Assembly (NCBI GenBank): GCA_947034885.2
Contig: OX344752.2
Span: 22,963,386 to 23,027,385 of the forward strand
DNA: 64,000 nucleotides
Source: Thuidium tamariscinum
Taxonomy: Eukaryota > Streptophyta > Bryopsida > Hypnales > Thuidiaceae
Reading direction: 5' to 3'
Under the pieces are notes generated by a model, which was not told the origin of the DNA, ran no database searches, and saw only the letters and a list, made by a program, of their open reading frames with translations. Below are positions 8,771-37,162 of this stretch, in pieces. Position 1 is the first letter of the stretch, and every line of letters begins with the position of its first letter. Made by a program: the position numbers and the translations under genes.

Positions 8771-8775
8771 GGACC

Positions 8776-14053: not shown

Positions 14054-16346
14054 AGGAAAAGTACTTCCAAGTGTGTTTTCAATTGGTCTAAAGTGACCTA
14101 TATTGAGATTAAATTTATGTTGGATTTAGAAAAATTTATTCTAGCTCTGAATCTCTGATCTTCTTCTTTTGTTCTTGATTGGCAACAATGACTACTTTCA
14201 AAATAGAATTTTCAAGTGCATTTTCTAGTTCAAAAAAATAAAAATGTAGAAGTCTCATTTTCCAACATAAAGTGTAGCCTATGGCTCAAAATAATATTTC
14301 AAGGTACACAAAAAGACTCAATAGTACTACTTTGGGGCCATATTGCCTCCAATCTCTCAATGTAAACTATTTTTTATGGCAAATTAAATCATGCTATCTA
14401 TCCTAGCCTTCCAATTATGAACATTACAAGTTGTCAAAATAGTAGATTTGAAATCTAATCCACCATTGAGATTTCATATTCAATGCCCCTAATAGTACTA
14501 AAGGTGACTAGTGGTACAAAAAGTACTAAAATGATGAAAATAAAAAACGCAACAAATAGCACAAGTGTTTCTTGCAAACACCCATGGCTTTCTACAAGAT
14601 CCTACCATTAGTTTTGTTTAATGAATGATTCATTGACCTCTGAGCTTTAACTCTATGTAAATTACAAAATTAGGATCCAAAACACCTTGAAAATTGCTGA
14701 AAATTTTAAGGATTAAGCTTACAGTCAAAGATAATTAGTGTAGGATTCTAATAAATACTACATTCAATATCCAAAACATACCCTAAGTGGATGCTTACAA
14801 CACAATTGCATGAAGTTGTTGCAATGCATTATTTGAAAAACTTTATATAGATGGTAGACTAAGGTATATAGGCCACACTTATAGATCAATAGCTTAGTTG
14901 ATGGGTGCCATATTTGCTTCTAGCATTTGTCACTAAAGGATCTTTCAATAGGTGAAGGAAGGTGAGCCATGTTGTAGGTTGGATGCTAAAGGCATTCTAC
15001 TTAGGCATGTGCAATCCTAACAACCTTTGTATTAATGAATATTTAGCAATATACAATGCACATGGACATTAAATAATGTAATATGATGCAATTACCTAGA
15101 CATATCCTAAATGGTTTGCTTGATGTTGTCAGTACTCCATAAAAGATCTTCTAGTGAGACTCTACCTCAATCCTTATTTTCAAGAGGTACCATTCATATG
15201 ATAATTTTGAGCTAATGTCTATGACTTTTGAATTCAATATTTTGAGTTTTTATTGACCTCTTGAGATACCATATCTTTGAAACAATGTAAGACATCATAT
15301 TTAATTGTAAAATGACATGTATTGTTATAGATGAATTTAGATATCAATTACACACTATTGGATAGGAATGAAATTGTATCACTTCAACATCATTCATTCT
15401 ATTACGACATTTGAACTTTAAGCAAAAATCTTAGTAAGAGGGGTTATCCTAGAAAAACATTTTTCTGAAGATCTTTCAATCCAATTATGTAAAATCCTAC
15501 ATAGTTGGGGATTCTATGAGAGACTTCTAAGGTAGATTGAACAATAAATATATTCCCTCATTTCAAAATGATAATCCTATTGCCCTTAATTTTTTTATTT
15601 ATTTAAAATGATCTTCCTACTATACTTTGTAACATTGAAAAATGTAAGATTCAAAATTCAATTGCTATTTGAAAGCAAGAAATAAAACCCTAAGAAGTAG
15701 TTTCTCCTCCATCTATGCAATCATCAATCAAAAAGACAAATGAAATGACAGAAGGAGTTAATCAATACTATTCGTGATTTTTTTACATCTCTCTAAATGT
15801 TCCCTAATTGAAAGAGATGAAACTCTAAAGGTGAAATAGAAGTCTACATATAGGCTTAGGCCCGTACTAACTACCCACAAAATGATGACCTTACACTCAA
15901 CAATTAAGTACTCATTAGTGTTCCTCGAAAATGCTTAAAAATTACACATTTCAATACTCCAAAATTACACTTTAAAAAGGGCTTCAAAATTCAAAGTTTT
16001 CAAGACAATCATAAGGAGTGAAGCAAACTCTATTTACAATGTGAAATGGGTTCTTAATATATTATTTTTAGCCTTATTTTGGAATATTTTGTTCAACAAA
16101 AAAATCATTTTGAGACCATGGGGAGTATAATTTTTCTCAATTACAAGCATACAAAAGCACTTTTTGCAGCACTTAACCCTTGAAGAATGGACCGGTGGCC
16201 ACAGAAACCATGCATTTTGATATTGTGTGACATCACCTACTTTAAAAAAGCCAAATATATGCATTGGAAGTCAAAGTACCGTAGAAGATCTTCCCTTTCG
16301 ACCCCCAATACCAAGGATGAAAAGTTGCATTTCTGTCTTGGGAGGA
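14054..16346. other. AT-rich intergenic DNA, no gene seen
   Basis: No convincing exon on either strand. The sequence is AT-rich with stop codons in all frames. A TTAACCCTTGAAG string at about 16165 resembles the piggyBac-like ends elsewhere in the window, but no partner end was found nearby. CTTGGGAGGA at 16337-16346 is the left flanking duplication of the giant element that follows. Confidence 0.5.
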
Positions 16347-16702
16347 CAAGGTTGCTAGCAGGCGAGTGTAGGAGCGTGAGCTTGGAAGCCTAGGAGCTTG
16401 TGAGCAAGAAAGAAAAAATTCTAAAAAATTGATGAAGGTCCTATGACCGTGGTTACAGAAACATACATTGTATGTGCTTGATTGTTGATTGTTTTTGAAT
16501 TTGTTGTAGAACACCTTCAGTTCATTGTAAGAAGTTTGGTTTCCGAATTTAATGTGACTAATTCTTTTCCAAAAAGCCAGCCAATTGATTATACTTTAGA
16601 CCTACATGTGATATTTTTTTGCTCTCACATTCCAGGGGATAAAGTTTCAAAGGAAATGATTTCTATTTCATTCACCATTTTTGTGGTAGGAATTTTCTTT
16701 GA

Positions 16703-16935
16703 GTGAACTTTAAATTACTCCCCATTTTTTTTCATAGAGACTTTCTTTGAGGTGAACTTTAATTTCACTCCCCATTTTTTTGGTAGAGCCTTTTTTGGTG
16801 GTGAACTTTAAATTCACTCCCCATTTCTTTTGTAGAGCCTTTTTTTGTGGTGAACTTTTAATTCACTCTTCATTTCAATTCTTAGAGATTTACTTTGTGC
16901 TGAATTTTAATTGCGCTCTCCATTTTTTGGGAGGG
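16703..16935. repeat. Five imperfect ~49-bp tandem repeats, subterminal in the giant element
   Basis: Copies start near 16703, 16752, 16801, 16850 and 16900. Each has the plan GTGAACTTTAAATTCACTCC, then CCATTTTTT and TAGAGCCTTTTTTTG, with the last copy the most diverged. The palindromic GTGAA..TTCAC core could be a repeated protein-binding site near the transposon end, but that is a guess. Confidence 0.7.
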
Positions 16936-19015
16936 AAGAAATTGTGCTTAATATGAATAAGGTACTTTTCTAACTTGCACTTTTATAGTCCGCGTGCACA
17001 CCCATATGATTTCTTAATTTCAAATTTTGTTTATTCGCTAGCAAATGTGAGGTGTGCATTTAGGGTTTTTAAATTTATTTCTGGGTGGAATTCAAGTACA
17101 ATTTTTTGAGAGAAATTAAACAATTCAAAAATGAAAAGAGATGAAGGGACGTCCAAGAAGTAGCCATAAAACACACAAATCCAATCATAAAAAAAAAAAA
17201 ACACAATAGTTTGGTTCAAGAGATTTGTGGATCTCATGAATCTAAGTTGCTATCGACTCGATCACGGAATCAGAACCCATAGATGACTCAAAGGATTCCC
17301 TACCCTCAGATGCAGACACATCTACATACTGCAAGACATTTAAAGTATAGGTGTCTTTGCGGTGTTTTGGTTTAGAGCAACCAAACCCCGCAAAGGCACT
17401 TGCCAATTGCTCGGCATAAACTGGAAGCTCAAAAGACTTTTGTGGACTGATGAGAAGACTTCGTTTTGACAGGATGGCATTAGGGGCCATCAATTCACGA
17501 TCCCTGTAGAAAATAACAACATGAAGTTAGGTTCTTGAAACACAAATGTACATTAGAATGCAAACAAAGAACTTATTTTATTGTCAACTTACTTACTAGA
17601 TTTCCCCTTGCGAACAAATTTGCGAGGCACCACAGGCATGTCCTCTAAGTCTTCCGAAACCTCAACCACAAGTGCTGGCGTTGGTTTAGGGTCTATAGAT
17701 GCTTGTGACTTCTTCATTGGCTTCAGAATAGCATTGAAAATGTCTTTGTGCCCCTCCAAAGCCACAATGTGGCGTCCAGTGCCACGACATGCCGTAATGC
17801 ATGCACCTGAAGTCAATGAAATTTTTATTTAATTATTTTGTGATTGAGTGACGTTGAAATACTATTGGAATGTAAAAGGTTTGATTTAAACGCTAACCTG
17901 TAGATGCGGTGCAATCCAAAATCAAATCTCCTTCGATGCTAGTCGTTTCGAGGAGGATGGTGAAGAACCTTGGATCTTTTTCGCGTCCTCCTCTCCAAGG
18001 CCACTCCCCATTCATTGCCATGTCATATGGATGGGTGTAGTTCATGAGCATGTCATCCTCTGCAACATCAACCCCAGTCTTTGCCATAGTGCTGGTCCGT
18101 TTGAAGGAAAATTTGGATTTCCCTTTGGAACCAAGGTCCTTCACAAGTAGAGTCACTCCAAACTTCTGTGTCTGCAGTATGGACATCAAATGTGAATTAA
18201 AATGCATTGAATAGATTGCACTATGATTATATAATGAAAACCAAGAGATTTGAAAGGAATATACCGTCTTAGTCTTCTCTACTGCGGAGGTGAGGTGCAT
18301 GCAGTTCATCCCCATCCACTCTTTCTTCCGCACCAAATTGTAAGTCTCACACACTCCAGCAATGCTCTCCCTTGCCTTCATACTATACGAGTGAAAGATG
18401 ATGATGCAACCATCATCATGCAAATGTTCTGCAGCAAAGCTACCTGCTGATTGCAATGCCTCATCTTCTGGATATGAATTCTAGAGTGGTACATCGGTTG
18501 GCAAAGAAGAGAGCCCTGGTACGGGTAAGTTCTCCGGGCAATCAAAGAAAATGACATCAACCCCTGCCTGGGCATTGAGCACACCCTCAAACATGTGAGC
18601 CTTTCCATTTGACATCTGCAAACATGCAGTGTAACAAAAAATTAATCATGAACATCATTAAGATAACAAAATTTGAAGGTCAAACAAAGAAATTAGAACA
18701 ATTAAGATGAAAATGGTCACCTTCTCCATGAAATCCACCACCTCATTGTAAGAAGTTGGTTTGTCTTCCTCCATGTCGTTCACAATGTCTTGAATGGAGA
18801 CATTGAGGATCAAATCCTCGGTCTTTGCTGCAACATCTTCGGTCAAGACCATTGCTTGTGTGACGTGACAGATGACCTGCTCAGTGAGCTGTGATAACGT
18901 GAGTTTTTGTCTCATTTTGCTCTCCATCTCAGAACCTTGATCTATAGTGGAAGATGGTACCATACCAGTACCAGCATTGTCCTTGTTCTTGCCCTTGCCC
19001 TTACCCTTCTCTTTA

Positions 19016-19238
19016 CTAGAAGAAAAGCCTCAAAATCTGCGTTTGTTTCAACATAATGTGTCAAGTGAGTTATGTTGAAACAAACGCAGAAAACGCAGTG
19101 AAAAAGTGGGAAAATGCAGAAAAAACGCATTTTCCTGCGTTTTCTCACTTTTTCACTACGTTTTCTACGTTTGTTTCAACATAATTCACTTGACACATTA
19201 TGTTGAAACAAACGCAGATTTTGAGGCTTTTCTTCTAG
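19016..19238. mobile_element. 223-bp foldback MITE inside an exon
   Basis: An almost complete inverted repeat: CTAGAAGAAAAGCC at 19016 is mirrored at 19225-19238, and the arms continue through AAATCTGCGTTTGTTTCAAC and further, leaving a short centre near 19120-19130. It interrupts the coiled-coil exon of the ParB/methyltransferase-like pseudogene, between the codons for KDKEA and SKEKGKG. A clear target duplication was not found; the CTAG/TA at both edges would fit a TA-inserting element. Confidence 0.75.
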
Positions 19239-20739
19239 TGCTTCCTTGTCCTTCTCTACTTTCTTGGCCGCTCTCTCGGCCTCCTTCTTTTCCTTATTTT
19301 GCAACATAACTTGGGCTCGAGCTTCCTTCTTTCGATCAAGTGCATCCCTCCTCATAATGGCCTTCTTCCTTGCATTCTGATCAAGGCCGTCAAACTCATC
19401 AATGTTGCAATCGACGACCCCTTTGCCGTCCAAAGATCTCCTAAGCTCAATCTCTGAAAGATGAGTGAAATCGAGTGTACAGTCCAGGTACCATCCCCCA
19501 CCAGAAAGATGAGCCCTGGTATAAGTGCGGAGTTGGTGCAGGCTAAACATGCAAGCCGTTGAACCCCAATCAAGAAATGATGCCAAAAATGGGGGAAGAT
19601 CTAAGCTAGCAATTGCTCCTTTGCCTTCAAGCTTGAACTTGAAATACCTGAAACACAACCATAGAAATTCATAAGGGATAATTTTCATAATGCTAATACA
19701 ACTACAAAAATACATTACAGTGGAAAATTACTATTGTCTACCTGGTCACAACTTTTCACAATAGTAGAAGCAATACAAATATCAAAGAGGAAAAATAATT
19801 CTCCCCAAAAATAGAATTACTATAGATTATTGAAACCCACATCTTCTAAACCTCAATGATGTACAAGTAAGGATTTAGAGGTATTTGGATGTCCATTTTG
19901 CCTAATATAAAATACCTCACAGCAAGTAGTGATGATTTGTAAACATAAAAACTTATAGATTGAATTCGTAAGTCATTAGAAATATACAAAACCTTTAGAA
20001 TTTTTTTACCTATTAAAACTAGTTCATGGCACTTACCGATAAAGAACTCTTTGCATTGTAGCACCTGAACCTTCATACGCCATGAAAGAATCTCCTTTCT
20101 TGAAATAAGTATGGCCCTTCAAATAATTCAAGAAGCCATGATCCCAAATCTTGCACCTCCACCCTTCAATGTGTACTCAGGTTTAGTTGGGAGCTTGTAG
20201 TTGACTGTAATGTTATCTTGCTTCACCACTCCATCAAAGTACTCAACGGCTGCATCTTCAATCTGAAAAACCCAGGAAAATATTAGAATTTAAACTATAA
20301 TATTTCTAAAACTGACTTGAAAAGCCATCATGAAATATTCAATACCAATGAAGGAGGAAAAAAAATATGAATTTGTAAAATTCATCACTCACCCCCGCAT
20401 ACCAAATGCATTTTGCAAGAAATTAGGGAAGAAGAAGCTCTGAAATAGGCTTGGGTGGAAACTTGCGTGCTTTACGAGTTAGAAGAGACGAATTCCACCA
20501 CTTCAAGATTTTAATCTTGTGTGCTGCACTCACATTGCACATGGCCACCAACTGCAGCTTCTCCAACGTCATTTCCGAAACTTCGTTTGTATTCCAATTT
20601 CCAATGCCGCTCCACCTAACCAACAATCCTCCACAATTTAGTTAATTATCAAAGTACAGAAAACCAGAAGCATAGACATGCAAAACCTTTGAACTTAACT
20701 CACCTCTTCTAAGAAGCCTGGACCATTAGAAGGATGAAC

Positions 20740-21082
20740 ATAAGAGGATTTCTGGGCCCCCAAGAGATCGTTTCAGGGGTGTTCCCCGAAATTGTTCCCA
20801 CTGCTGCAGACCAGCACCTTGCTGGTCTGAATTTTTGAATTTTGAAAAAAAAAAATTAAAAATTTTTTTTTTCCAAAAAACTTCAGAATGTATTAAAGAG
20901 AGAAAAAACGATTTAAAAAAATATTTTAAAAATATTTAATATTTAATTAAAATTAATAAAAAAATATTTTTTTCTGACGTGGCAGTCGCTCGACCACATC
21001 AACATCACGTTCCCAGCGTTCCCAATGCGTTCCCAGCGTCTGGGAACTCGTAGTCTCTTATTGCAGCTGAAAATCCTCTTAT
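20740..21082. mobile_element. 343-bp inverted-repeat insertion inside an exon
   Basis: ATAAGAGGATTT at 20740 is mirrored by AAATCCTCTTAT at 21071-21082. The interior has an A/T-rich centre and several copies of GTTCCCAGCG (21005-21050). It separates exon sequence encoding KMGKLLAVA from that encoding NGPGFLEE in the pseudogene, so it is a later insertion. No clear target duplication is visible. Confidence 0.6.
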
Positions 21083-22986
21083 GCCACTGCCAAGAGTTTT
21101 CCCATTTTCCCCATCATGAGTTTGGTTTTTTCTTTTGCTCTAGATCTCATGGCATAGGCAATCTCTGCTGCCTTCCTATCATCCTCAGGTATTGCATCTG
21201 TATACTTTCTCACTGCAGAGTCTGCAGCTTGAGAAATCTCATGCTGTAATACCATCCACATATTTAAATTAGTCATGATAATATTAAAAAAAGATGCTAC
21301 TTTGGAAGATGATGAAGGCTCAAAAAACAAAAAAACTTACCCTGAAAATGAATGATGTGAAGACCTCCACTGGTATACTACACCATTTCCTTGAAACCTT
21401 GTTCTCAAGGCACCATTTTTTTTCTGAAGGCCTTAATAAATTAGTAAACCGTTCAATGGGCAAGAGTCCATACTTTTGCACTTGGTACAAAGTGTATACC
21501 AAGTTAGTCTTCACATGACCATCCTCAATAGATCTGCAAAACATCAACCACATTTATTATAATGAGCTTCTAGCCATACATTAGATACTTTATAAAACAA
21601 CACAACACACTGATAATCAAATAAACAAATAAATAAAAAGACTCATTTGTTGATGTGGTGCATCACTTGCATCACTAGCTCTGTTCGCCCTTTTGTGTCC
21701 AGTAGAATGCAATCCATGACACAATGCATCTTTGGGACCAGGGTATAGCACCTGTCAATAAGATTCATCCATGCAATGCGACGATGATTTCCGTCACATA
21801 TGAAGAACTTCAAGTTCTTCAAGGATCAGAGCTCGGGTTTGGACTCTAGGTGTCGGAGAAACACATCATTCTTCTCTCTCCAAATTGGATCCCACTTCGC
21901 CATCTCATCCTCCGTGAATTTCGAGTTGTATCCTTCTTCATTTGTGGTGGAGACATAAAAGGCTGTTGCACCATCTCTATATCCACCCGCAAACTCCTGC
22001 TCCAATTTGGTAATATCGCAGGACAATGTAGGCCTGACCATAGGCATAGCAACAAGTCTGTAGAGGGGAATTTTCAACCTATAGAGCTCATTTGGCTTCA
22101 TATGGAAAGTAGAAAGAATATCCACTGAGTCTCCTTTTTGAACACGACGGAACTCGTCCTCAAGATTTTCTTCTCTTCCTCATCTTCAACAAGATCAATT
22201 TCCATAGCCTCATCTCCTTCCTCTACTGGACCTCCATGTTTGAATCTTTCTCTTCCCTCAATGTATGGTTGACGTATCTCATTTGTGCCTGGCGTTTCCA
22301 TGATGGTCTCCTTTTGAGTTTCTTTAATGGCGACACATCAATCTGCAATAAAAACAATCATAAGCAAGGAGCCTTGAAATATAATTTGAATTCAAAATAC
22401 ACTTTGAAAAAATTTACTTAGAATATGTAATAACACTTGGAAAATAGTAGACCATTGAGAATGTTGATCAAAACCAACCCTTTAGGCTTTAGAGTATTAA
22501 GTCAAAAATGGAATATCACTAGGAAACTTGATTCTAGAGATATCAATCTCACTCTATGATGTCAACATCCTCCTCCTCGGAATCTGAGCTCAATATGATA
22601 ACTTGGTAAAAATAAACTTTTCCAGTATGATACGATTCATGTAACTCCTCAAAAGGAGGACTAGAGCTAGCATTTGAGAGCTCTACAGCTGAGGAGTATT
22701 CTGTCTCAGAACTCTCAGATGAAAACCAAGGACCAGGTTCATGATTCCAACTAAGCCTATCTCCCTCAAAGTCATTTGTTGCACGCTCTGCAGCATCCAT
22801 GATATCATTGAAACTCACCAAATTTCTCTCATCATCACTGGAGTCACTTGGTATGGGCATGCCAGGCTGAGGCCACATCTTCTTTTGGGATGGTCCTTCC
22901 ATATCTAGAGCTGGAAAAGTCTTCTCTTTTGGGACTTGAACCTTAGAGGAAGAAATCTTAAGACGCTTGCCTTTGTGTCGTCCATC

Positions 22987-24012
22987 CTAATGAGATAATG
23001 ATTCCCAAATATGAAGTTTAGAATCAATTCATGAAAACAAAAATACCAATGAGATTCAAGAGAATTTACAAGACAATACACCTTTTAAATAATCTTAAAG
23101 AAAATTTTCAAAGTTCAAAATCTTTGAGAGCGATTATGGCAAAGAGATGATTATAAAAGACAAAGGACATTCATTACAAAAGAGAGATAATTATTGTAAG
23201 AAAAAGAAATCATGTGGCAATTAAGAAACAATGAAGAGGTCCACATGCCAAAATGTGACAAGACCAATAATTAAAGCCAACTCAATGATGAAATTTCAAA
23301 TGGAAGTAATTGAGTGACCCTTACCTGATCAAGGTTTGACTGAGCTCTTCTTGCAGACCCAATTCAAACGTTGGAAATCTGAAAAATTTAGAAGCTTAAC
23401 AAACAACATCAGTATGGATCAAAGAGGCTCTCACATAAGGACCCAACATTCAGTTTAGGATTTATCCAAACAAGATCGTTACAAGTAAAAGAAAACCCGT
23501 TTAGGGTTGATAATGAACCTCAAAAAACGGAATCTCACAGCCATCGAAAGCTACTGAACAGTTCAATCTTCTAAACATGTAAACAAAGTTATTCTTCACG
23601 TTTGAATATATTCATTGTGATGATCATATTCACAAACTGAAGTCTCAAAAAAGAGATCCATATTCGAAACATGAAGACCAAGAATAAACAGTTACCTCCA
23701 ACCGAAACTAAAACGAAGGTCAGTCTCATAGAGGAGAGATCTTAACATAGCAAAAACTGGAGTAGCACGACCTACAGGCAAAACCCTCGTCGGATCCGAA
23801 GGGGTTCCAACAGGTGAGTTGTGCTACCCCATTTTTCTACATGTCGTGAGACATTGATTCGCTTTTTCCTTGAAGTTCAGTGATCTACACCAAATTCAAC
23901 ACTTGAGGTCAAAATAATCAGGAATCGGCGCTATATAGACTAATTCGAAGGATCTGAATCACAAGATGTATCAAAAAATCAGAAAACTTGGCTTCCAAAC
24001 GTGTGCAAGGAT
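22987..24012. other. Intron-like and spacer sequence of the giant element
   Basis: AT-rich. A possible small minus-strand exon (about 23336-23380) is flanked by CAG and GTAAGG and may belong to the ParB/methyltransferase-like gene. At 23760-23832 an imperfect inverted repeat (GGAGTAGCACGACCT against GGTGAGTTGTGCTACCCC) surrounds CGTCGGATCCGAAGG, related to the GGATCC palindromes of the following repeats. Confidence 0.35.
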
Positions 24013-24893
24013 ATCAGTTTCTGGATCACTTCATTACGAAGGCAAGTCGCTCATTGAAGCAAGGAATCCTCAGCGTGTGGATTTCTGGGGTACCGTGACC
24101 CCATCAAGAAATGTCCTTCGGATCCGAAGGCCTCCGGAGGATGAGGTCGCGGTACTCTAAAAAACCACATGTTGAGGAATTCGTGGACACTCAGACGCGT
24201 GACATTGAATGCCATATCTTCGACGAATGGAATTCTACACCCTCTTGAGTCTTTCTTATGCTTTCAACAATCCTAAAAACCCGAATGAGCTCCCCGAAAC
24301 TCAGTCTTCAGAAAGCTACGAGATCAGTTTCTAGATCACTTCATTACGAAGGCAAGTCATTCATTGAAGCAAGGAATCCTCAGCGTGTGGATTTCTGGGG
24401 TACCGCGACCCCATCGAGAAATGTCCTTCGGATCCGAAGGCCTCCGGAGGATGAGGTCACGGTACTCTAAAAAACCACATGCTGAGGAATTCGTGGACAC
24501 TCAGACGAGTGACATTGAGTGCCACATCTTTGACGAATGGGATTCTACACCCTCTTGAGTCTTTTTCATGCTTTCAACAATCCTGAAAACCCGAATGAGC
24601 TCCCCGAAACTCAGTCTTCAGAAGGCTGCAACTCGTCAAAGGAGAGACTGTTTACAGTCACTGATACCACGGTCACTGCCTGCGTGGAGAAATCAGAAAA
24701 ACAAATTCCATACATTCAATTATTCATCAATATCCAGACTAACGGAATCGGTGGGGGAATCTGTCATTATGAAAACAGACTCTCGGCACATGGATTCTGA
24801 GAGTACCGCGCCCCCAGTGTGGTGATCCCGTCGGATCCGACGGACTCCGAGAGCGACAATCGCGGTACCCCCAAAAACTACATGTCGAGATTA
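24013..24893. repeat. 310-bp tandem duplication plus a partial third copy
   Basis: Copy 1 (24013-24322) and copy 2 (24323-24632) are about 95% alike over their length, both starting ATCAGTTTCT and both containing the palindrome CCTTCGGATCCGAAGG. A diverged partial copy at about 24788-24893 has CCGTCGGATCCGACGG in the same place. Open frames of 64-88 residues repeat with the DNA and do not resemble a known protein. The unit may be part of an older repeat in the giant element. Confidence 0.8.
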
Positions 24894-24901
24894 TTTCGTG
24901 A

Positions 24902-25771
24902 CAGGGCTGTGCGGACGTCCGGGCGTCCGCGTCCGCGTCCGGCACCCCGCGGACGTCCTATGACATTTGATTTTCATAATTTACTGCGCCCGGTAAAAAC
25001 TAAGGCGGACAGCCTTCCTGTTCATTGGCCGTCCGCCCTGACCGTTGGCGTCGGAGGTCCTGTCCGACCGCCCCTCTGCCCCGACTGCCAACATTCGACT
25101 TGTCGTCCGCCCTGTCCACCCGCCGTCTACCCGCCGTCCGCCCACCGTCCGCCCCGTCCGCCAGCCGTCCGCCAGGGTTGTCATATCGGACGGAATAAGG
25201 TTGACCGGCTGCGAACTTCGAACGGCTGTAACTTTTGCAAAAAGTCTTCAAATTGGGTAAATAAGATGTTTTTTGGCATCTACAGAAACTGTAGATGCTA
25301 AAAAACATCTTATTTACCCAATTTGAAGACTTTTTGCAAAAGTTACAGCCGTTCGAAGTTCGCAGCCGGTCAACTCTATTCCGTCCGCCATGAAACCGCC
25401 TGTCCGCCAGCCATCCGCCCCGTCCGCCCCGTCCGCCAGCTGTCCGCCATAAAATCGCCTGTCCGCCAGCCATCCACCATAAAACCGCTTGTCCGCCAAC
25501 CATCCGCCATAAAACCGCTTGTCCGCCAGCCATCCACCAACTGTCCGCCATAAAATTGCCTGTCTGCTAGCCATCCGCCAACTGTCCGCCATTCAACTGC
25601 TTGTTTGCCAGCCGTCCGCTAGTAAAAGCTGTCCGAAATTTGTTTACCGAGCGTTTTACCGGGCGTTTTACCCAGCGTCCGCTATGTCTGCCAGTGTCTA
25701 GACGTCTGGACGTCCGGACGTCCGATTTTTGGATGCATTTTTGGAAAAATGCGGACGTCCGCACAACCCTG
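24902..25771. mobile_element. GC-rich 870-bp non-autonomous hAT element
   Basis: The element starts CAGGGCTGTGCGGACGTCC and ends with the complement of CAGGGTTGTGCGGACGTCC; the CAGGG start is typical of hAT ends. An exact 8-bp duplication TTTCGTGA lies at 24894-24901 and 25772-25779, the hAT target-site length. The interior holds repeated GTCCGCC(AGCC) units (25045-25180 and 25381-25620) and a large hairpin. No transposase is encoded; apparent open frames are repeat translations. It is far richer in G+C and CpG than its surroundings. Confidence 0.88.
25187..25387. repeat. Near-perfect hairpin, ~99-bp arms with 3-base spacer
   Basis: Arms 25187-25285 and 25289-25387 are inverted copies with about three mismatches, separated by AAA. 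Arm content includes CGGACGGAATA, GGTTGACCGGCTGCGAAC and AAATAAGATGTTTTTT. A transcript would fold into long double-stranded RNA, a possible small-RNA source. It lies in the centre of the hAT element. Confidence 0.92.
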
Positions 25772-25779
25772 TTTCGTGA

Positions 25780-25975
25780 GGCCCCGCGCCCGTGCCACGA
25801 CTCCCGTGCCCGCGCCGCGACTGCCCTTTAATGGCACGCGCCACGACTTACCGTTGCTGGCCCGCGCGCCCGCGCCACAATGCCCTGCGCCCGCGCCATG
25901 ACGCACGCGCGCTCGGGCCGTGACTGCCCCTTTCTGGCACGCGAGCCCGCGCCACGCGCGCCGCGACCTTAAAAC
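25780..25975. repeat. GC-rich imperfect tandem repeat (GCCCGCGCCACGACT-type)
   Basis: Reiterated GCCCGCGCC, GCCACGACT and GGCACGCG words make this one of the most GC-rich stretches of the window. It directly follows the right TTTCGTGA of the hAT element and was presumably contiguous with 24893 before that insertion. Open frames crossing it are probably spurious. Confidence 0.6.
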
Positions 25976-28194
25976 CGTAAAACTAACTAGGGAATTCAAG
26001 AGAAACGACGGTAAGATTCAAACCTCTATTCTTGTGTCTGGATCCAGTTCCGGAGGTTTTCTCGTTGCGGCAGACTCGACCAAAGCTTCCTTCGCTCGTA
26101 CACGCGTGTGTCGCGCCATGACTGACTGGCTTTACGAGGACAAGCGTCTCCGCCGTCAGCTACCAAAAGAAAGATCAAATGTGCTCATTGCATACACTAA
26201 GAGAGCTGCGCAGGTATCCTCTGATTGATCTGGAAGGTGGGAGTTCATGGACAAACTCGGCGCGGAGACGATGACCATCCCAAAACCTGGACAGCCACAC
26301 GGAAGATCCGCGCGAGAGGCTTGAGAATGAGGACAAAAGAAATCAGTTTTCGGGGAAGCGGAAGGTCCGCTTGAAATTCCCCTCATCCTCGAAATTTGGG
26401 AGGAATCCGACACCACTGAAATCTCTCTGGAAAGTTTAGACTCCTGAGCGGCGCGTTGAGCCAGTTCTTAGCTGGGTGGCGTAATATCCTCTGGGATCAC
26501 CACCCGTAATCCGTATTTGGAAATTGAAGAATTTCAATCTACACTAGTCATGTCCATGCGTATCTCGAGTTGCTTTTGAACTCAGAGAATAAGCGGGGTT
26601 AATTTTCTAAGACGAAGACTCCAATTCCTCGCCATACAGATTCATGTTCTGGTTTTTACTTGAACTTAGTAACGTGGAAAACAGCATGCAAACATGCATT
26701 CAATAAGGTGAGGTTCAAGCATTTTTGCAATACAAAGACCATGTCGGTTTTAATAAGTGACCAAGTTCAACGTACTGTCCTGACACTACCAAGATTCTCT
26801 AGTTTGTCTGTATTCAAGGCTACATGAAAGTTGACCACTTTCTGGATTATTGATTCTTCTGCACGCCAGAAACCATGACAAACATGGCGAATCGAGTATG
26901 GTGACGTTCTGCACTTCCCAAGAAGATGAGTATGACTTTTCTTCTTACACTCAATCACTCATCATCTTTTTGGCTAATAGAGCCAGTACGTTGGTAAAGT
27001 AATTTAAATTTGTCGCCTGCTTTCTCACATGTTGCACTTCTTTGCCTTTTAGTTTTGCTTGTCTCTATTTCATGTTTTGAGTTCCAAGTAGTTTTAAGAA
27101 AAATATAAGGTGAAATCAACCATTAATTGGTTCCAAAGAAAGAAAAAAATAAGATAGGGGATGTAAGAGTGTATCTTTACCAATAACTACTTGATTTCCA
27201 CTTAGGGGGAGCTATTTTTGTTGATACGATTTTTAGTGAATTTTTATGTTTAGGAAAATGGAATTGACTTCGAACCGAACTCCTTTAATACTTTTTAGAC
27301 CTTCATGAAGTTTATTCTGAATTTCTGAAGTTGAAGACATAGTCGATTCTAAAAAGTGATCCCCTCTTGAAATGTACACTTGTAGTATATGTTAGAGGAA
27401 AAACCTACCAAATCCCTTTTTGAATTAAGGTCACAATTACAGCCCCCTACTTTATAAGCCTTTGTTGCATCAAGACATGACCGTGCAAATATGAATATTA
27501 ATTTTCATTATCCTAAAAGACTGATAGCACATACATTAGTAGAAGAAACAAAGTGCAAGGAAAAGGATCCTAAGTATTATTTTCCTACTCAAAGTCCAAT
27601 GAAAAAGCTTTGCAATGTCATACAAATTTGCAAATGGAAGCCCAACATACACTTTGAATATTTTCTTAAAATTGTGTTTGGAACAAAATCCTAAGCTTCT
27701 TTTCTAAATATCCTTGTTGAATGGTTGTACAATAGAGTCAACCTCATTGTAGTTGCATTTGCAAGTTCAGTACCATTCACTTCTATAATATATGCAGTTG
27801 TTGCTACGCACATAAGGATGGAATAGGATTGAAGAGTACTCTACTTATTTTCCTTATTCATGCACTCAATGTAACCTTCATTTTGAAGAGATACAATTGA
27901 CTGTTGTAAACCGCTCTACCAAAATATAGAAGCAATAATATATTTACTCCTTGTCACGTTCAATACGGCCTTGGGTACTCCTACATCTATACTACATCGA
28001 TTGATTTCATACTATGTTTTTCCAAGCACTATAGAGTAATCACTCATAAACACTATACTGAGTTTTTCTAAATTGAAAGAGAGAATACATGGGCCTTTGT
28101 AGCACCCCTAAACTGAAGTTCATTCCTGCAAGATTTATATTGAATTCAAGGTAAACAATCTGGAATGGGCTGCAAGATGCTTACATTTGGATTG
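25976..28194. other. No supported gene; interior of the giant element
   Basis: The 25976-26460 part is moderately GC-rich with overlapping open frames on both strands (for example plus 25920-26228) that match nothing I know. From about 26500 the sequence is AT-rich with frequent stops. It could be intron of the ParB/methyltransferase-like gene if the exon at 28195-28379 is its first. Confidence 0.3.
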
Positions 28195-28379
28195 TCGTTT
28201 GTAGCCGCCACTTGGTGGTCGCCAGCGAGTTGTTGACTCTCCTTACGCAGTGCCTCCGATTCATTGTGCTCAACATCCATGGGCTCGCCACTAGCTCCTC
28301 CTTCAAATCGAAGAGACTTTCGAGTTTCAGCAACTCCAGAATTGTTGGACTTCGATGCAGCCCTCTTGCCTCGTTTCAT
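28195..28379 (-). pseudogene. Possible first coding exon of the ParB/methyltransferase-like gene
   Basis: From the ATG at 28377-28379 a minus-strand frame encodes about 61 residues starting MKRGKRAASKSNNSG, basic then acidic, and ends at a good donor (AAT then GTAAGC) at 28195. The basic start could be a nuclear signal. It lies upstream of, and on the same strand as, the decayed gene ending at 17242, and back-to-back with the transposase gene starting at 30470. Linking it to the 22986 exon is an inference from layout. Confidence 0.35.
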
Positions 28380-28908
28380 CCTTAATCTACTAACAACTCT
28401 ACAAGATAGAAATGAAGAAAACTTCTTATCTTTTGGAATCAACAATGAGTTTTCAAGCAAAGAAGGCGCGTCTTCTAAAAGTCTGAGCTCTAAGAATCCT
28501 AATCCCTAAACCTCCCTTCTTGAACTACCTCCAAGAGGCTAAAGAAGATAACTTCAAATGAACACTTCTAGTCGGGGAAGAAGATAAGTACTTCTCAGAT
28601 TGTAACATTGCATTCATTCTCACATGTAGTACTAGGTAGCTCTGCTAGGCCCTGTGCCCGATATTTCAAAAGTGGTTGAGTTAGGCGGCATTATAAATGT
28701 GCCGTCAATTTAGATCGCAACGGAGATTTGATAGTATCGTTTCAAATCTGACATTGTCCTCTTCATGCGTGCCGCCGACTTTTGAACACATCCAACTTAG
28801 ATCAATTCTGTAACATAGAATCCAAAGCAAAAAATTAGTATATGAATGTGCTATTGAAGTCCCAAATGTCCTACTACTAGAAATGCAATACTAAATAAGT
28901 AATATACA

Positions 28909-30126
28909 CAACGATGCTAGAGTATGAGCGGGGAGCAATGAGCAATGAAACTTAAATGCTCATTGCAAGAATATTTTCTAAAAATAGACATGTTAGAGAA
29001 ATAAATAGTATTATCAAATCCAAAAATAATAATGTCAAAAATTTTAAATTTTTAAATTTTTAAAAAAATCTACAAAAAAATTATATAAAATAGTTGATAT
29101 TATAATGAAAGGTTGCATGAATGAACACCCATTCATTCATGTATGAATGAACTTCATCCATGTCATCCATCCATCATTCATCATTCAATTTCCAAATTGT
29201 TAAAATTTTTGCAACTCATTATAAGCTTTTTTGAACCCAAAGAGGCTTTGAACCATTTGTGCTCTTTAATATCGTCTCCCTAAAAGCTTCTTTGGAATCC
29301 AAAAAAGGCTTCTCAATTCAGAGAGCCCTTCTTTGGAGCCAAAGGGCTCTCCTAGTATAGGCTTTTTTAGAACCTAAAGAATGCTCCTCGGATTCAAGGA
29401 GCTTTTCTTTAGTGCTAAAAGGCTTTTTTTAATAAGGCTTTTTGAATTTATAAAAGGCTCTTTAAATGCAAGGAGCATTTTTTGGTGCCAAAAAGGTCTT
29501 CCATTGAAACCACTTTGGAACTAAAATAAGGGTACTTCAAATCAATGAGCCCTTCATTTGTGCCAAAAAGCTCATTTAGAGCATCCTTGAATTGAAGAGG
29601 CCTTAAAATCATCATTGCTTTTTAATATTGTCTCTCTTCAAGCCTCCTCGGAACCCAAGGAAGGCTCCTCGGATCCAAGGAGCCTTTTTTGATACCCAAA
29701 ACTTCTTACAATGAAGGCTCTTCGGAATCCAAAAAAGGCTCCTCGGATCCGAGGAGCCTTTTTTGGTGCCCAAAACTTCTTGCAACGAAGGTTCTTTTAA
29801 ACTCAAGAAAGAGTCTTTGGATCCAAGGAGCCTTTTGTTGATGCCAAAAAGTTCTTTCAATGAAGGCTCTGTACAGCCCAAAGAATAATCTACATCCATA
29901 GTTCTTAATTTTTTCATCTATATTTTTCATCTACATTCATCTGGTATTATTTTCATCCATCTAAAGTAATGAATGAAATAAGTCATTTACATCTAAAGAT
30001 TTATTTTTTATAAAATTAATTTTTAAATGTTCATTCTTAAATTTTTTTCTTAAAATTCTTAATGCTCAAATCTTCCCGCTCAATGCTCAATGCTCAACGC
30101 TCATTGCTCATACTTTAGCAACCCTG
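28909..30126. mobile_element. 1.2-kb non-autonomous MULE derivative with hairpin-rich interior
   Basis: Left end CAACGATGCTAGAGTATGAGC and right end (complement) CAGGGTTGCTAAAGTATGAGC are inverted repeats. They match, in reverse orientation, the right and left ends of the giant element (CAACGACACTAGCG and CAAGGTTGCTAGC). GTAATATACA (28899-28908) and GTAATATACG (30127-30136) flank it, a 10-bp duplication with one mismatch. GAGCAATGAGC-type subterminal repeats recur at both ends. It encodes nothing evident and sits between the two divergent genes of the giant element. Confidence 0.78.
29285..29880. repeat. Tandem hairpin repeats (GGCTCCTCGGATCCAAGGAGCC type)
   Basis: Successive units of roughly 80-95 bp each contain a palindrome such as GGCTCCTCGGATCCGAGGAGCC cut down by mutation, followed by TTTTTTGGTGCCAAAA. 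The best-preserved palindromes are near 29664, 29738 and 29818. They make up most of the interior of the 28909-30126 element. Confidence 0.75.
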
Positions 30127-30469
30127 GTAATATACGCAGCCTAAATCTTTAATGCAAGCACGCTTATAAGATGCCAGGGTTTTAGAATTTAATGCACTAT
30201 CTTTAAGACTAATGAAATACAAAAAACTATATCATTTTGAAATCCTTGTATGAGACACCCTTAGTTATAAAAGTACAGAGTAAAAGGACAAAACCTACCG
30301 GCAAAAAGCATATCAATGGAAATAATGAGTTCCATAACTTCTGTACCAATAGACAATAATAGTAGGTGGCGCTAAAAACTACAGTAAAACCTCATGTTTA
30401 CAAATACTAAGTACTTCCAACTAAGTCTCTCTTTTGTGTATTGAGGTGCATTGGTTAGTTAATAGAAAC

Positions 30470-33400
30470 ATGGCTTCCATACGCGTTGATGGTCAAGAGG
30501 TTCCCTTGGTCTTTCCGCTTGATGAGAGAGGGTATGCTACAGTTTTCAGCCACTTACTTCATGTAAGGTTCAAGTTCATTGAATCATCTATCTACATTGA
30601 GGAAGAGAGGAAGTCAGAGTCAGGTGAATTAAAGCAATCTATTCCTCTTGTGAAGTCAGCCTCTAATGGAAACCATTGTTGGTATCTGGGTTCGGGAAAT
30701 TTCAGAGTCTATGGTCTCCCTCTACCAATGCTTCCTTTGTCAGTTGAAATAGGAAGTCACCAGTCTGCCAATTCAATAGTGGACATGCCCTTTGTAGTTG
30801 AGGCTTCTACACGAAGTAATAGTCAAGATTGTCTGCCAATGTTCTCTAGAAATGAAAATGAGGTTGTAGTGAAGATAGAAAAAATGGACACTATTGTAGA
30901 TCTATCTAGCGATTTAGAAGGAGACTTTGTACCCTTATCTCTTGACCCGAAACCCTACATTATTATGGGTGTTTCAAGTGAGAAGCCAACTACTCACAAT
31001 GACTCAGAACCCCCAGCTAGTAATATTGCAAAGTCTTCGTTCTGTCATCCTATGCTACAATCAAATCCTAACAAATGCTTGAGTATTATGGAGTGCTTGA
31101 AGAAGCTTTCTACTCTTCAACGTTCAAGGAATGAATTGTCTACTGTGAATCTAGACAGCATGAAACATCATCTAGTAGAGTTTCTTCCACCTACATACAA
31201 CGGGGATGCCATCTTCGAATTGTCACCGTGTCAATGTTCTTCTTCTTCTTCCGCAGCAAAGAACCTAGAGGGGATGGACAAGCGTTATGACGGACATCCT
31301 TGGTGCAAGCTCATAACAACAAACATCCACAATTCAGATCAACTCAAGTTCCGTAAGTCCTACTGCGCTGGTCATCTTGTTTGTGAGAATAGTGACTATG
31401 AGTACTTGAAGAAGGCTTCTAGAAAGAATGAAACAGAGTGGAGCGGTTCTACCATTTTTCCTTTTGTAGTTGGACAAGGTCCTCCTAAAGATTGTAAGCT
31501 TGTTTGCAAAGTCTGCAAAAGTACACCTACTTGCCTTCGCATGTGTGATGCTGAGATGTATTATTGCTATAGTGAAAACCCCAAAATGACTAGAGCCGCT
31601 ATCCACTTTGGAAATCATACTCACCCAGTAGCTAAGGGCATGTATAGAGACTCTGCAAAGGAAATTAGCAATCTCATTGCAGAACAAGTGGCCAAGACTC
31701 CGATAGCTACAAACTCTGCTATAGCGTTGTCTGCTAACAAAGACTTCTTGACAAACCATCTTTTTCACTATGGAGAAGGAGAAAAAGAGATGCTCAAGGG
31801 AGATGAGATGGAAGAGGTTATGGACCGCTTCCAAGTTCTAAGCAGTCCTAGCATACGAAACGTCATCTCTTCTTTCCGCTCAAACAATCGAGGAGGTGTC
31901 ATCGACAACATTATGACTATGAAGAAAGAATCCAAATTTGAATTCATCCACGATAGCGTATTTCCAAGTCAAGGGAAGGAGAAGGTGTATATAATCAAAA
32001 TGCTTACCGAAGGACCTGGAAGTGGAGTCGACCTCGTCAAGCGTATGCAACCTGAGGGGGATCTACAGAACGCGTGGATGATGTTTGACCACGTGAAGCA
32101 CGTGAAGGACTGGACCACTATGGCGTGCCACGTGTACGATTCACTGTACAAAAAGGTAATGACAATTGCAGTATGTGATATGCAGTCTGAAGATACCGAG
32201 ATCCAAGTATAGTTCTGGAGAAGTTTGAATGCTGTCATGACACATTATGGAGTGTCTGACACAAACTTTAAAGGCTTTATGGCAGATAGTGCAATGGCTA
32301 ATTGGAATGTAGTACGTATTGTCTATGGTAGTGGTTCTTCAAATGAGGTCATGGAAAACCAGGAGAGAATTTGCCTATTGCATTGGACATCTTCTCTTAT
32401 CAAACATACACAGAAACACATAAAGCCTGCATTTCAACACCAACACAATATACTATATAAGCAATACAAAGAATCCAAGAGTGTGGACGAAGCAGAGACA
32501 CGCTATCTTTCTATTCGATCATGGTGGTTATCATCTGGGGCTGCAAGCGAGGAGTCACTTCATCACTTGGAGCATTGGCTAGTATTCTGGCACTTTCGGT
32601 ATTTGCAATGGGGAGGCTTTATGACTATGGTAAGCAAAAGCAGTCTTGATTTATAGCTTTATGTTATATTTTCTCCAAAATAGTGGCAAATGTGATTGTA
32701 CTTTTAAACGGTAGGAATGTATTCTTGGCTTTAAGTATTGCTTGTCTAAGTGAAAACATTGGAAATTTAAAATTTGAGAAGAAAACATTATAGAGGTATA
32801 TGAAATGGAGGTATTACAAAAGAATACATATGATTCCGTCGGATTCGACGGAATTTTATGTGTTACCATGGTGTACTCTTTTTTGGAGTAATGATGATGT
32901 AAAAATAATTTTTAGGTTCACTTCTAAAAGTTTATAATTACATTTTCTTGTAAAAAGGTATCTTAGTCTAAAACTTCTCTAATTTACATTTCTTTCGTTT
33001 TCTAGGATAACATGTTTAATCTTTTTTGTTACAGATTTTGTGATTGAAATTGATTAGATTGGATGTACACTTATGCAGGGCTTGAGTTTGGAGGAGATGA
33101 CAAACTTGCCTTTTTGTAATTTTCTGAAACTATTCATAACAAGTGGCTACAAATGTCAGGGAAACGCGGAAACAATTTATTTGACGCCACTTGTGATGAT
33201 AATATTCGTGCTTGGATGCAAATGACGAATTATCGTGCATATCTTAGAGGACATGCATCTGGTTCAGGCCCATCAAAGGGGGAATTGAAGCTGAGAGCTG
33301 CAAGATGTAGTGAATGCCCTAAGAAAATTGTGGAAGTACTGAACACGTTACCAGAAGCCCATGGTGTGGGAACTCGAGTACCACATTTGTAAGGAGAAGA

Positions 33401-34466
33401 AATATTCGGGAGTACAAAGAGGAAGTTGGATGTACCTATTGGTGATGATGGAGATTCACATAGACCTGACAAAGTGAACTTCTCGCAGCCCCGTGTTCAA
33501 ACAAGGTCAACTAAGATATCAGAAGAGCCATTGGAGATCAATGCGTCACAAAAGGAGGTCAATCCTATTCAATATGTAGCAGTAGTATTTGAAAGCGATT
33601 GTGACACATCAAAGTGGCACATTGCTAGGATCAGCCACAAATCGAATGCTAGATGTTCAGCTCAACAACGGACATCCAACATCAAATATACTTCAAAGAT
33701 TTCGAAGGGGAAAAAGGGAACCCCAGCTCCCACCTATCGTGGTAGAAAGGAAGAGTATGGCACTAAACGAGAGGTGGTTGTAGACTTCTGGTTTTGTTGG
33801 GATGATATTGAAAGATGTGTGAAAGGTACCAAGCGCAAGCGGGTCATTGATTGGCCGGAGGTGCCTGACATTTGACCTATTTTGAGTGGGACTTACCTCA
33901 ATCGAGAAGAAACTTTGTTGCTACAACATGCAGGATTCCAACTCCAGGAGAAGCCAACATTATCGCCACATAAACTTTTCACCATGTCTAAGATTTTCAC
34001 GCCTTTTTTTCTCGACCATCCATCACCACCAAACGCCGATGTACATCCAATAGTGAGAAACAACCAGACTATTAGGAGACTTGCAAATGCCCCAACTATT
34101 GAGCAACGAAACAAATGGGAGAGTGCTGGAAATGTTAAAGGACAAATTCTAGAAGTAGCTATTCTCCCATTTCCAAGACTTGGTGCAATATTTGTACTAG
34201 AAACTGGACTGGAACCAAAGAAAAACATATATCGAGTGACAGTGGGTATGTTCCCTTCATGCACTTGTCCGGACTTTGTCAACATGGTTGTGTCTGCTGT
34301 TGGAGGGTGAGCGCAGTATGTGAATTGCAAGCACTTGTACTATTTGTATAGATATTTTTGCAAGATGGACATCCATGATGATAAATTCATTCATGCACCT
34401 AGTTATAGCTTCAATGAGTTGAAGCTACTTTTAGTCCGAGCTAGGATTATTATAGTTTCAGAGTAG
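30470..34466 (+). pseudogene. MULE-type transposase with SWIM zinc finger, decayed
   Basis: Probable transposase of the giant element. The frame runs from ATG 30470 (an open stretch from 30434 lacks ATG) with one intron, 32630-33078 (GTAAGC..GCAG). A zinc-binding CxxC...HxH region (KLVCKVCKS, NHTHPV; about 31495-31630) resembles the WRKY-GCM1-like fingers of MULEs. The catalytic-type core includes MMFDHVKHVKDW, VCDMQSED and FKGFMADSAMANW (about 32075-32310). The C-terminus has a SWIM finger: PSCTCPDF, then NCKHL (about 34246-34345). Disruptions: TAG 32210-32212, a one-base deletion near 33125, TAA 33390-33392, TGA 33873-33875, and TGA 34308-34310 inside the SWIM motif. The final stop is 34464-34466. 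The N-terminal 300 residues match no domain I recognise. Alternative class: KDZ-like. Confidence 0.7.
32836..32851. repeat. Palindrome CCGTCGGATTCGACGG in the spacer of the transposase intron
   Basis: A near-perfect palindrome inside the 32630-33078 intron, extended outward by ACATA/TATGT. It shares its core with the GGATCC-centred palindromes at 23790, 24120, 24430 and 24830, hinting at a small repeat family scattered within the giant element. Confidence 0.5.
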
Positions 34467-35013
34467 ACATGGCTTTTCTTTTTTACTATATCTCATTCAT
34501 ATTGTATCCTTTTATACGTTTAGCAAATGTAATATTATGAAGGACATGGAATAGAAACAAATGTATTTATCACAAAATACAAACCCATATCTTATAAGTA
34601 GGTGACATGGTGGATAGTTTATCTACATATGTACAACATCCACCTTATATCTCATTATGGAAATGCACATTTAAAAGTGACATGAGTTTGTTACACCTAC
34701 AACGGTTTCCAAGTTCTTTGGAGTAATAATATAAATTGTTAAAACTTCGTTTCAGTCTAGAAATCACCATGCCTACCCTAGACAATTTATGGCTATACAA
34801 TATAACACTCTATAACAATCCACGGTCATAGGAGACACGGTCATAGGCCCCAAAATTTACTATAATAGCAATTTTTATTAGAAATTTTGACATATTTTGA
34901 CTGAATTTTTTTTTTCATCAACTTTTTTAATTTAAAAACCTTGTTGGGGCTCACCGCTCACAAGTTTCTTGCTCACAGGCTCACCGCTCCACGCTCAAAC
35001 GCTAGTGTCGTTG

Positions 35014-37162
35014 CTTGGGAGGAAAGATTCTTTGTTATTCAGTGGACGCCAAACGTCCACGGCGTTGTTCAAGGGTTAATGTACAATTTGATGCATGCAA
35101 AATGATAATAGATGGAGAGATCTCCAAACACATCCAAAAAAATATTGAGAGATTTCAGTACTTTTGAATTTTGAACTTTTGAAAGTTCAAAAGTAGCTAA
35201 ATGTAACATATTTCATAATCCTCTTTAGTGATGTGTGTGACATGTAGATGGAAAAGAAGAAGGTGGAGCATCAAAAGGTTGATGATCTTGAAAATCAAAC
35301 AATCTTAACTTAGTCTAGAAGGAAAGGTTTTTGTGACCAATATAATTTGACTTTAGCCTCTTGCCATTGACCAATTATTTTCTGCATAATTAAAAAATCT
35401 ATAGAGTCCAAGGTAAGGAATAGTTGAAGAGACAATCCAAAGCAAAGATGGCAAGGGATATATTGAAACCACCTATTCCCAACCATAGATCCATATCCAA
35501 CCTATAGGTGTAACCTTTCCAACCGAGGCTTGAAGAGATTTTCAATAAAAGTTTGGAATGTGTTTTTTGAAATTTATTTCAAGATTGGGACTAATAAGTT
35601 CATGACATATGTCTTGAAGTAGTGAGGAGGAAAGTAGTTCTTGAATAATTGGAATTAGAAGACTCTTTACATTAGAAATACGTTCAAGTTAGCTTTTGGC
35701 TTCCAAAACTCATGATAATTTAAATTCAAGAAAAAAAAATCACAAAAAATGGCAACTCCCATTCATTCTATCTTTCTACATGGCCAGAAATTTTCATTGC
35801 CTCCTACTGCTCCGCATGCTCCAAAACATGTGCGGAATTTCTTATTATTTGGTTGATGATGGGTGGTTTTACAATGAACTTAACTGTAGCTAAACGAAGA
35901 CCTCCAGTTTCAATGCTGTGTTTGTTTTGATACATTTGTAACTTGCTACCCAAATTAAAAATCTCCTCCCAAGTATGACTGCAAGAACCTTTTCATCCAC
36001 CTGGGAGCTCCTTGCAAGCAAAAGCCATTGGTCTTATGCCTATGATTGATCAAGTGCACTCTTTCATGAAGATCAAGAAAAACTTAGGTCTTGCTTTGTC
36101 CACAGTTTGTAAGGTTTATGTTTTGAATTTTCATAAGTAATTCAATAATGCTTTGAAAAATATGTATTAGATAACGGATGAGTCACTCTAGCTTTAAATT
36201 TACAGATTATCTAATACATAATTGGTTGTACATTTTTCAATCACAACCTTTGATCTTCATGATCCAAGAATGTAGGAAGTAAGTTGAAAGGAAAGAAGCT
36301 TATGAATTGCAACTTGTAATGGCAATGGTGGCAAGTTGTGAATGGGACACTACCACTTTAGCATTGAAAAATCAACAACTGGTAATGGAACCACTTGTGT
36401 TAGATTTTGCATCTATTTATCTTTGTATGGAAAATTAGCTAATCCTAAATGCCTCTTTTGAACTTCTAGGAATTTATTCAAAATTGAACAAAAAGTCAAT
36501 GTATTGATAAGCTTTATCAATTTTTGAAATGTAACCGTACAAATTCAAACTAGATATATTAAAGATCACTTAGGAAAAGGAAACTCAACAATATCACTTG
36601 TGGATTGAAACATTATAATGTTTGATTGTGAGGGTGTTAAAATTGCAAAAGTGAGTTCAAGTCTGTCACCCTTCTTTTCACTTGTCAAATCTATAAAGTT
36701 GGTCATAAAAAAAATATGAGGTCAAAAGGGCCTAGCATGCACAACCCCAATCAATTTATGGCTTCTCAAAATCTACTCTACAATTTTTTCAAATGAATTT
36801 TTAATAAATGTGTTTTTTCCTCCAAGATCTAATGTATTTGAGGCTCATTTTCAAGAGCCCTCAACACCAAGGAAAGTCAAGATTGCAATGGACACCCTTT
36901 TGCAAAATCTTCAATAGAAAAATTGTAATCAATTACTTTCAACATCGGATTTTTGATGCTAAAACCAAACTTTCAAAAAAAATTCAGATCAATAAACTAC
37001 TAAAAATTGTAACTTGTTCAGTTTTATTTACCTCCAAACCTTTGCAAACACCAGATTTTGGTGCCGTGGGCATTTGGGGGTTAAAACAGAATGATCCGAG
37101 GTACTACGCCTCACCGCGCTTCAATAAGAATCAATGTGACCCTAAACCCTGGCGGCCGCCTG
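35014..37162. other. AT-rich intergenic DNA, no gene seen
   Basis: Starts with the right CTTGGGAGGA duplication of the giant element. CAAGGGTTAA (about 35066) and GGGGGTTAAAA (about 37073) resemble right ends of the TTAA/CCCC family, but partners were not identified. Composition shifts to GC-rich within about 80 bp before the cyclase stop codon. No exon was recognised. Confidence 0.45.

Follow-up and report, generated by a model that had tools for sequence, protein, structure and literature searches.

Structure of the Element

The window analyzed here, a 64,000-nucleotide stretch of the Thuidium tamariscinum genome (assembly GCA_947034885.2, contig OX344752.2, positions 22,963,386 to 23,027,385 of the forward strand), contains at 16347-35013 an 18,667-bp transposon, lying between exact 10-bp target-site duplications of CTTGGGAGGA (16337-16346 on the left and 35014-35023 on the right; neither the duplications nor the element as a whole has a strand). 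Across the whole window, CTTGGGAGGA occurs on the plus strand at these two places only and on the minus strand once, at 35964, while random 10-mer pairs drawn from the window as a chance control were identical in 1 of 20,000 draws. Two genes, a transposase on the plus strand and a second gene on the minus strand that we call the cargo, diverge from the middle of the element. If in-frame stops are ignored, the cargo frame runs to 17242 and the transposase frame to 34466, which leaves 895 bp to the left end and 547 bp to the right end, respectively.

The terminal inverted repeats are short and imperfect, and both ends are conserved in copies. The left end begins CAAGGTTGCTAGC and the right end, read on the complement, begins CAACGACACTAGC; the words TGTGAGCAAGAAA and CCTATGACCGTG are common to both in inverted orientation, and TTGATGAA is legible in each of them. 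An inverted alignment of the CA-starting ends scores 33, which was reached by none of 500 dinucleotide shuffles (maximum 30). The left terminal region lies at 16347-16460 (plus strand), with a CA start, GCTAG, GAGC-rich words and CCTATGACCGTG, and the right terminal region at 34821-35013 (minus strand), with a CA start, CTAG, GAGC-rich words and CCTATGACCGTG twice. The left end is matched over positions 1-214, 1-196, and 1-186 at three loci (L036, L037, and L038), and the right region is matched through its last base at three others (L031, L033, and L035). An earlier reading of this DNA (the original prediction) had described identical 10-bp flanks, CA-starting ends with shared inverted words, and two divergent genes each ending within 1 kb of a terminus. 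All of these features are present, and the interval that it proposed is the element itself, directly inside the flanks.

Copies in the Host Genome

The 363-Mb assembly (G000; 19 contigs, with the window on contig C4) was searched with the first transposase exon as query, and 62 matches were scored among 1,080 candidates. All 62 are 71-100% identical to the query across nearly its entire length, and 36 of them, counted from the match table, lack a stop. The surroundings were read for three copies, which share 94% (the closest copy), 81%, and 73% identity with the query. These lie on contigs C3 (36821863-36838273; 16,411 bp), C1 (46868811-46884551; 15,741 bp), and C7 (28508768-28523245; 14,478 bp), and are flanked by exact 10-bp duplications of AATGTAGACA, GTTCTAAAAG, and TACATTCATG, respectively. 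All three stop at bases homologous to the ends of the window element, and with the window copy included, exact 10-bp duplications that differ in sequence from copy to copy are found in four of four. In each of the three, the cargo lies upstream of the transposase on the opposite strand with its exon order unchanged.

Six further copies were sampled as every eighth row of the match table (rows 5, 13, 21, 29, 53, and 61), which avoided choice by eye; rows 37 and 45 were left out, one being a copy already read and the other its neighbor. In 3.2 kb read at the place expected for the cargo, all six show cargo exons divergent from the transposase, and four show several exons in order. The row 13 copy has the methyltransferase end only, with the transposase exon of another element beyond it, and the row 29 copy has exon 2 plus 38 residues of exon 3. 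Cargo exons thus adjoin the transposase in 10 of 10 copies, including the window, complete genes not being proven in all 10. Further copies sharing both ends, and the two genes occurring together in them, are what the original prediction had called for; with such copies in hand, the refuting outcome that it had named (no second copy sharing both ends, or copies with termini elsewhere) did not arise. A 200-kb stretch downstream, taken blind, held no other copy of the element.

Two observations concern the distribution of copies. Contig C11 (17.5 Mb of the 363 Mb) holds 15 of the 62 scored transposase copies, an excess among scored copies, and is perhaps a repeat-rich or sex chromosome. Near the C7 element, at 28504641-28523756 of that contig (L034, L035, and L037), another copy of the transposase and one more match to the right end are found, which would represent clustered or nested copies.

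The Transposase

Exon 1 of the transposase (30470-32632, plus strand) encodes 721 amino acids with one in-frame TAG at 32210 and holds an N-terminal ubiquitin-like fold, a WRKY-GCM1-like zinc domain, and an RNase-H core (D540, D606, and C635-x2-H638). Exon 2 (33080-34466, plus strand), with in-frame stops at 33117, 33390, 33873, and 34308, holds a candidate catalytic E at 33126-33128 and a SWIM-like CxC...CxH pattern near 34260-34335. In the predicted fold, D540 falls within the first strand of the core and D606 directly after the fourth strand, and the first four Foldseek ranks in PDB are all ISCth4, which we take to be an IS256-family transposase; the match is by fold only. In the VIA-align list, ISCth4 aside, the rows are mostly small single domains. 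Among the 89 relatives with a residue at the position, C635 is kept in 85 and H638 in 86. Transposases of Mutator-like elements (MULEs) carry a Cx2H between the second D and the E. The candidate E is replaced by K in one of four copies, and the SWIM-like pattern is intact in C1, C3, and C7.

None of 30 transposase sequences matched the Pfam MULE profile PF10551, which does match 33 other places in the same genome; a divergent member may escape this profile. For the SWIM zinc finger, which many plant MULEs have, the profile PF04434 gave E values of 0.02-0.03, short of the cut-off. A transposase profile against PDB sequences retrieved only a spidroin (E 0.73), and none of 236 pattern stretches in IMG/VR was confirmed as a viral relative of the transposase. 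MULE target-site duplications span 8-11 bp (PMC6446971), a range into which the 10 bp of all four copies falls. Given the conserved D, D, and Cx2H and the SWIM-like pattern, the best reading of the transposase is that it belongs to a divergent lineage of MULEs.

The Cargo Gene and Its Product

The cargo, modeled by eye, has about 12 exons, one of them split in the window, and encodes approximately 1,200 residues. All segments lie on the minus strand. Exon 1 (segment NT1, MKRGKRAAS..., followed by GTAAGC) is at 28185-28379 and is matched at L030 and L032 and weakly in C7 (28%). Exon 2 (NT2) is at 22618-22986, and exon 3 (PAR), which contains the ParB-like motif CDGNHRR, is at 21647-22342, where a TGA interrupts the frame near 21826 and a frameshift lies upstream. 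These are followed by E4 (21342-21533), E5 (21084-21243), MID (20394-20615), and E7 and E7b (20037-20262, frameshifted in the window). The split exon is represented by E8 (19240-19647) and E9 (18721-19018). E10 (18265-18615) has one in-frame TAG and carries VIFFDCPENLP, the presumed methyltransferase motif IV; E11 (17898-18171) reads PWRGGREKDP...GDLILDCTASTG and is motif X/I-like; E12 (17593-17806), with ACITACRGTGRHIVALEG, ends the region resembling an S-adenosylmethionine (SAM) site; and E13 (17242-17503) is the last exon.

The N-terminal part of the protein is long and mostly unrecognized by profiles. A first homology search, limited to scoring the 8,000 candidates with the most words in common, yielded a single relative for the middle of the protein (P0001, 53%), and the last search found 18 relatives of the methyltransferase-like part. 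Two of eight relatives matched the beta-class methyltransferase profile PF01555 with E values of 6e-4 and 1.5e-3, both under the cut-off of 26.7 bits. The matching region in these two lies around LDCTASTG and the following RHFVAMEG, where phage DNA-methyltransferase profiles reach 2.8e-5. For the window cargo itself the values are 0.19 (PF01555), 8e-4 (phage profiles), and 0.015 (CcrM). Six residues of LDCTASTG (L, D, C, A, S, and the last G) are invariant in 10 of 10 rows.

Beta-class amino-methyltransferases have a catalytic (D/N/S)PP(Y/F/W), the aromatic residue of which holds the flipped base. At the position presumed from the motif order of such enzymes, DPPY is absent in all 12 alignment rows that cover it (7 of the 19 rows do not reach it). 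These rows instead read D-x-P-E or D-x-P-K, mostly DCPE, otherwise DCPK, DFPK, DIPE, or DVPE; C1 and C7 have DCPE and the decayed C3 copy has NCPK. Because the (D/N/S)PP(Y/F/W) pattern is not found there, we do not class the cargo as an active enzyme. For the methyltransferase part, 0 of 4 candidates in IMG/VR and 0 of 36 in GTDB were confirmed as viral or prokaryotic relatives, and its profile matched nothing in PDB sequences below 0.6. The window sequence of this part gave, against PDB, 6g6o 'Ika8' at 8.5e-4 over 33 residues, unrelated chains at no less than 0.2, and DpnA at 0.66. The C-terminal domain thus bears a weak resemblance to beta-class DNA methyltransferases, from which it may derive, with the motif I region kept and DPPY absent.

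The ParB likeness consists of the single motif CDGNHRR. ParB and sulfiredoxin profiles gave no Pfam match in one scan and a best E of 0.15 in another, with none below 0.09 overall, and the ParB-like exon matched nothing in PDB sequences below 0.98. Its structure model is of low confidence (predicted local distance difference test score, pLDDT, of 35), and neither the profiles nor the model speak for or against ParB. Of the ParB/methyltransferase-like gene in the original prediction, the methyltransferase likeness stands in weak, sub-cut-off form. Neither ParB nor the further proposal that the cargo acts on or recognizes DNA methylation state is established.

Selection, Decay, and Later Insertions

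Ratios of nonsynonymous to synonymous divergence (dN/dS) were calculated with a simple Nei-Gojobori script on tblastn alignments. C1 and C7 have no stop in the 13 segments read. Between these two copies, cargo dN/dS is 0.12 over 1,046 codons, with a dS of 1.18 that is near saturation; this sum leaves out exon 1 and the two exon-7 segments, and MID alone yielded no dS. For transposase exon 2 the same pair gives 0.09 over 446 codons. The corresponding values for the pair of decayed sisters, C3 and the window, are 0.54 and 0.32. For single cargo segments, the ratio is 0.11 for E10, 0.16 for E11, and 0.28 for E12. Selection for function appears to have long maintained both genes, and the window and C3 copies would be relics.

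In the window, the transposase has five stops (those at 32210, 33117, 33390, 33873, and 34308), and the cargo has two stops, frameshifts, and later insertions. Since both genes carry stops and the cargo these further lesions, the window copy is not of the autonomous type. The "giant cargo-carrying MULE" of the original prediction is borne out by the 10-bp duplications and by the cargo exons in 10 of 10 copies, but its "autonomous-type" label does not suit this copy.

Three insertions, which have no strand, are younger than the element. A hairpin miniature inverted-repeat transposable element (MITE; 19015-19239), with 110-nt arms that are 95% complementary, splits the cargo exon between E8 and E9; it is absent from C3, C7, and C1, judging by an E8-E9 spacing of 5-14 bp there. 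A later insertion of about 346 bp (20738-21083) is a repeat, with three other matches (76-91%) in the next 200 kb downstream. A nested element of 1,218 bp (28909-30126), with CA/GCTA/GAGC ends and a duplication matching at 9 of 10 positions (GTAATATACA / GTAATATACG), sits between the two divergent genes. Its ends are similar to one another and to the outer right end, with scores that 0 of 300 shuffles attain; against the outer left end they show no match beyond chance (61 and 62 of 300 shuffles attain the score). The C3 copy appears to be without the nested element, because its gene starts are 866 bp apart vs. 2,090 bp in the window.

Proposed Explanation and Alternatives

We consider it highly probable that the window element, now decayed, represents an abundant land-plant family of DNA transposons with two genes, belonging to a Mutator/MULE lineage that is related to IS256 and invisible to Pfam; this confidence concerns the identity of the element, not the function of its cargo. 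Beyond the observed structure, ends, duplications, co-occurrence, and constraint, a DDE transposase with WRKY-GCM1-like and SWIM-like zinc domains would bind the ends, which are rich in GAGC, and move the element by a cut-and-paste mechanism that leaves the 10-bp duplications. The cargo would be an old partner of the transposase within the family, binding DNA and SAM without ordinary N-methylation and either keeping the element expressed or aiding its transposition. Because selection on the two genes is similar, the cargo is probably needed in the same life cycle as the transposase. A DNA- and SAM-binding protector or regulator is favored because the methyltransferase scaffold seems to be kept while the base-holding tetrapeptide is lost.

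That the cargo protects or regulates the element, for instance against silencing, is a tentative reading that we place, by judgment and not by measurement, level with an accessory role and ahead of an active methyltransferase. A narrower version, in which a methyltransferase-derived protein without the tetrapeptide has long been carried by the lineage and has become an anti-silencing factor dedicated to reading or blocking DNA, or the modification of that DNA, at the ends of its own element, is rather doubtful; such an origin did not turn up for VANC or for TET-carrying elements in the literature searched.

Equally tentative is an accessory transposition protein unlinked to DNA methylation, such as a targeting, integration, or nuclease partner. 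Its place beside the transposase in all 10 copies, under similar constraint, and its long, mostly unrecognized N-terminal part would suit such a role, as would the case of mudrB, whose function is given as unknown and which integration apparently requires (PMC6446971); the methyltransferase-like C-terminus speaks against it. It seems unlikely that the cargo is an active N6-adenine or N4-cytosine DNA methyltransferase whose motif IV is non-standard and which marks the DNA of the element (for example for protection, excision timing, or labeling of newly replicated DNA). Points in favor of this reading are that the LDCTASTG region is conserved among distant relatives, that the protein resembles CcrM-type and phage methyltransferases, and that E10, E11, and E12 are constrained, whereas the absence of DPPY in every row covering the site counts against it.

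As to the transposase, it is quite improbable that it represents a separate superfamily merely resembling MULEs. A KDZ-like transposase with a SWIM finger is an example of such a look-alike. The Pfam MULE profile misses all 30 sequences, and TET-carrying KDZ elements show that other superfamilies acquire DNA-modification genes (PMC12730594), but the 10-bp duplications, ISCth4 as best fold match, the Cx2H located after the second D and before the candidate E, and the WRKY/GCM1-like domain all point the other way. A chance 10-bp match around a mosaic of unrelated repeats, which the several later insertions might have suggested, is ruled out by the homologous ends and exact, differing duplications of four of four copies.

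Relation to Known Systems

Plant MULEs with genes beyond the transposase include VANDAL and Hiun of Arabidopsis, described as MULEs with the anti-silencing protein VANC (PMC5735166, PMC10398659); VANDAL elements have 9-bp duplications and a SWIM finger, and Hiun has vanB and vanC (PMC6446971). Going by these descriptions, the cargo here differs in being methyltransferase-like. MuDR of maize likewise has two genes, mudrA and mudrB, while the elements reported here are 14.5-18.7 kb long and their second gene has many exons and encodes about 1,200 residues. MULEs with SET, PMD, and ovarian-tumor (OTU) domains are listed in Table 1 of PMC6446971, in the main text of which the words methyltransferase and Physcomitrella were not found.

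Outside plants, fungal carriers of TET/JBP genes (KDZ, EnSpm, hAT, Harbinger, IS3EU, Plavaka, Helitron, and others) have been proposed to escape silencing in this way, and the list of these lineages in the abstract of the same paper does not name MULEs (PMC12730594). They too are transposons that acquired a DNA-modification-type gene, but with another transposase, host kingdom, and cargo chemistry (a dioxygenase there, methyltransferase-like here). Bdelloid rotifers offer a second parallel, with an N4-cytosine enzyme reportedly of bacterial origin. Methylation of this kind has been reported in these animals (PMC8885841), again a bacterial-type amino-methyl chemistry in a eukaryote; there it is a host mark, whereas here it concerns a transposon gene without DPPY.

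Among the open-licence papers searched, none was seen to describe a MULE that carries a ParB or methyltransferase gene as cargo. This suggests that, while MULEs with second genes are already known, a methyltransferase-like cargo is new among them. A transposon and a methyltransferase-derived gene have been kept together, and similarly selected, across deep divergence within one plant genome, in which many copies have a stop-free first transposase exon. This offers a system in which the encounter between transposons and DNA-modification defenses can be tested, and the natural series of decayed and undecayed copies can be used to ask what the cargo is for. Annotation based on Pfam would also overlook the transposase lineage that this family adds.

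Neighboring Features

Three other features of the window lie outside the element. On the minus strand at 37163-39217, an uninterrupted frame of 684 amino acids, by its look presumably a bacterial-type squalene-hopene cyclase, occupies a stretch of 59-62% GC (window mean 39%) and was possibly acquired horizontally. At 51729-54848, also on the minus strand, a frame of 1,039 amino acids ends in GDYW and comes with a 303-bp tandem array (5.5 copies, 91% matches); we take it by look to be a pentatricopeptide repeat (PPR)-DYW protein, which suggests a land-plant host. On the plus strand, open gag-pol-like frames of 333, 1,000, and 256 amino acids at 7769-12453, with one stop between the last two, presumably belong to a Ty3/Gypsy retroelement.

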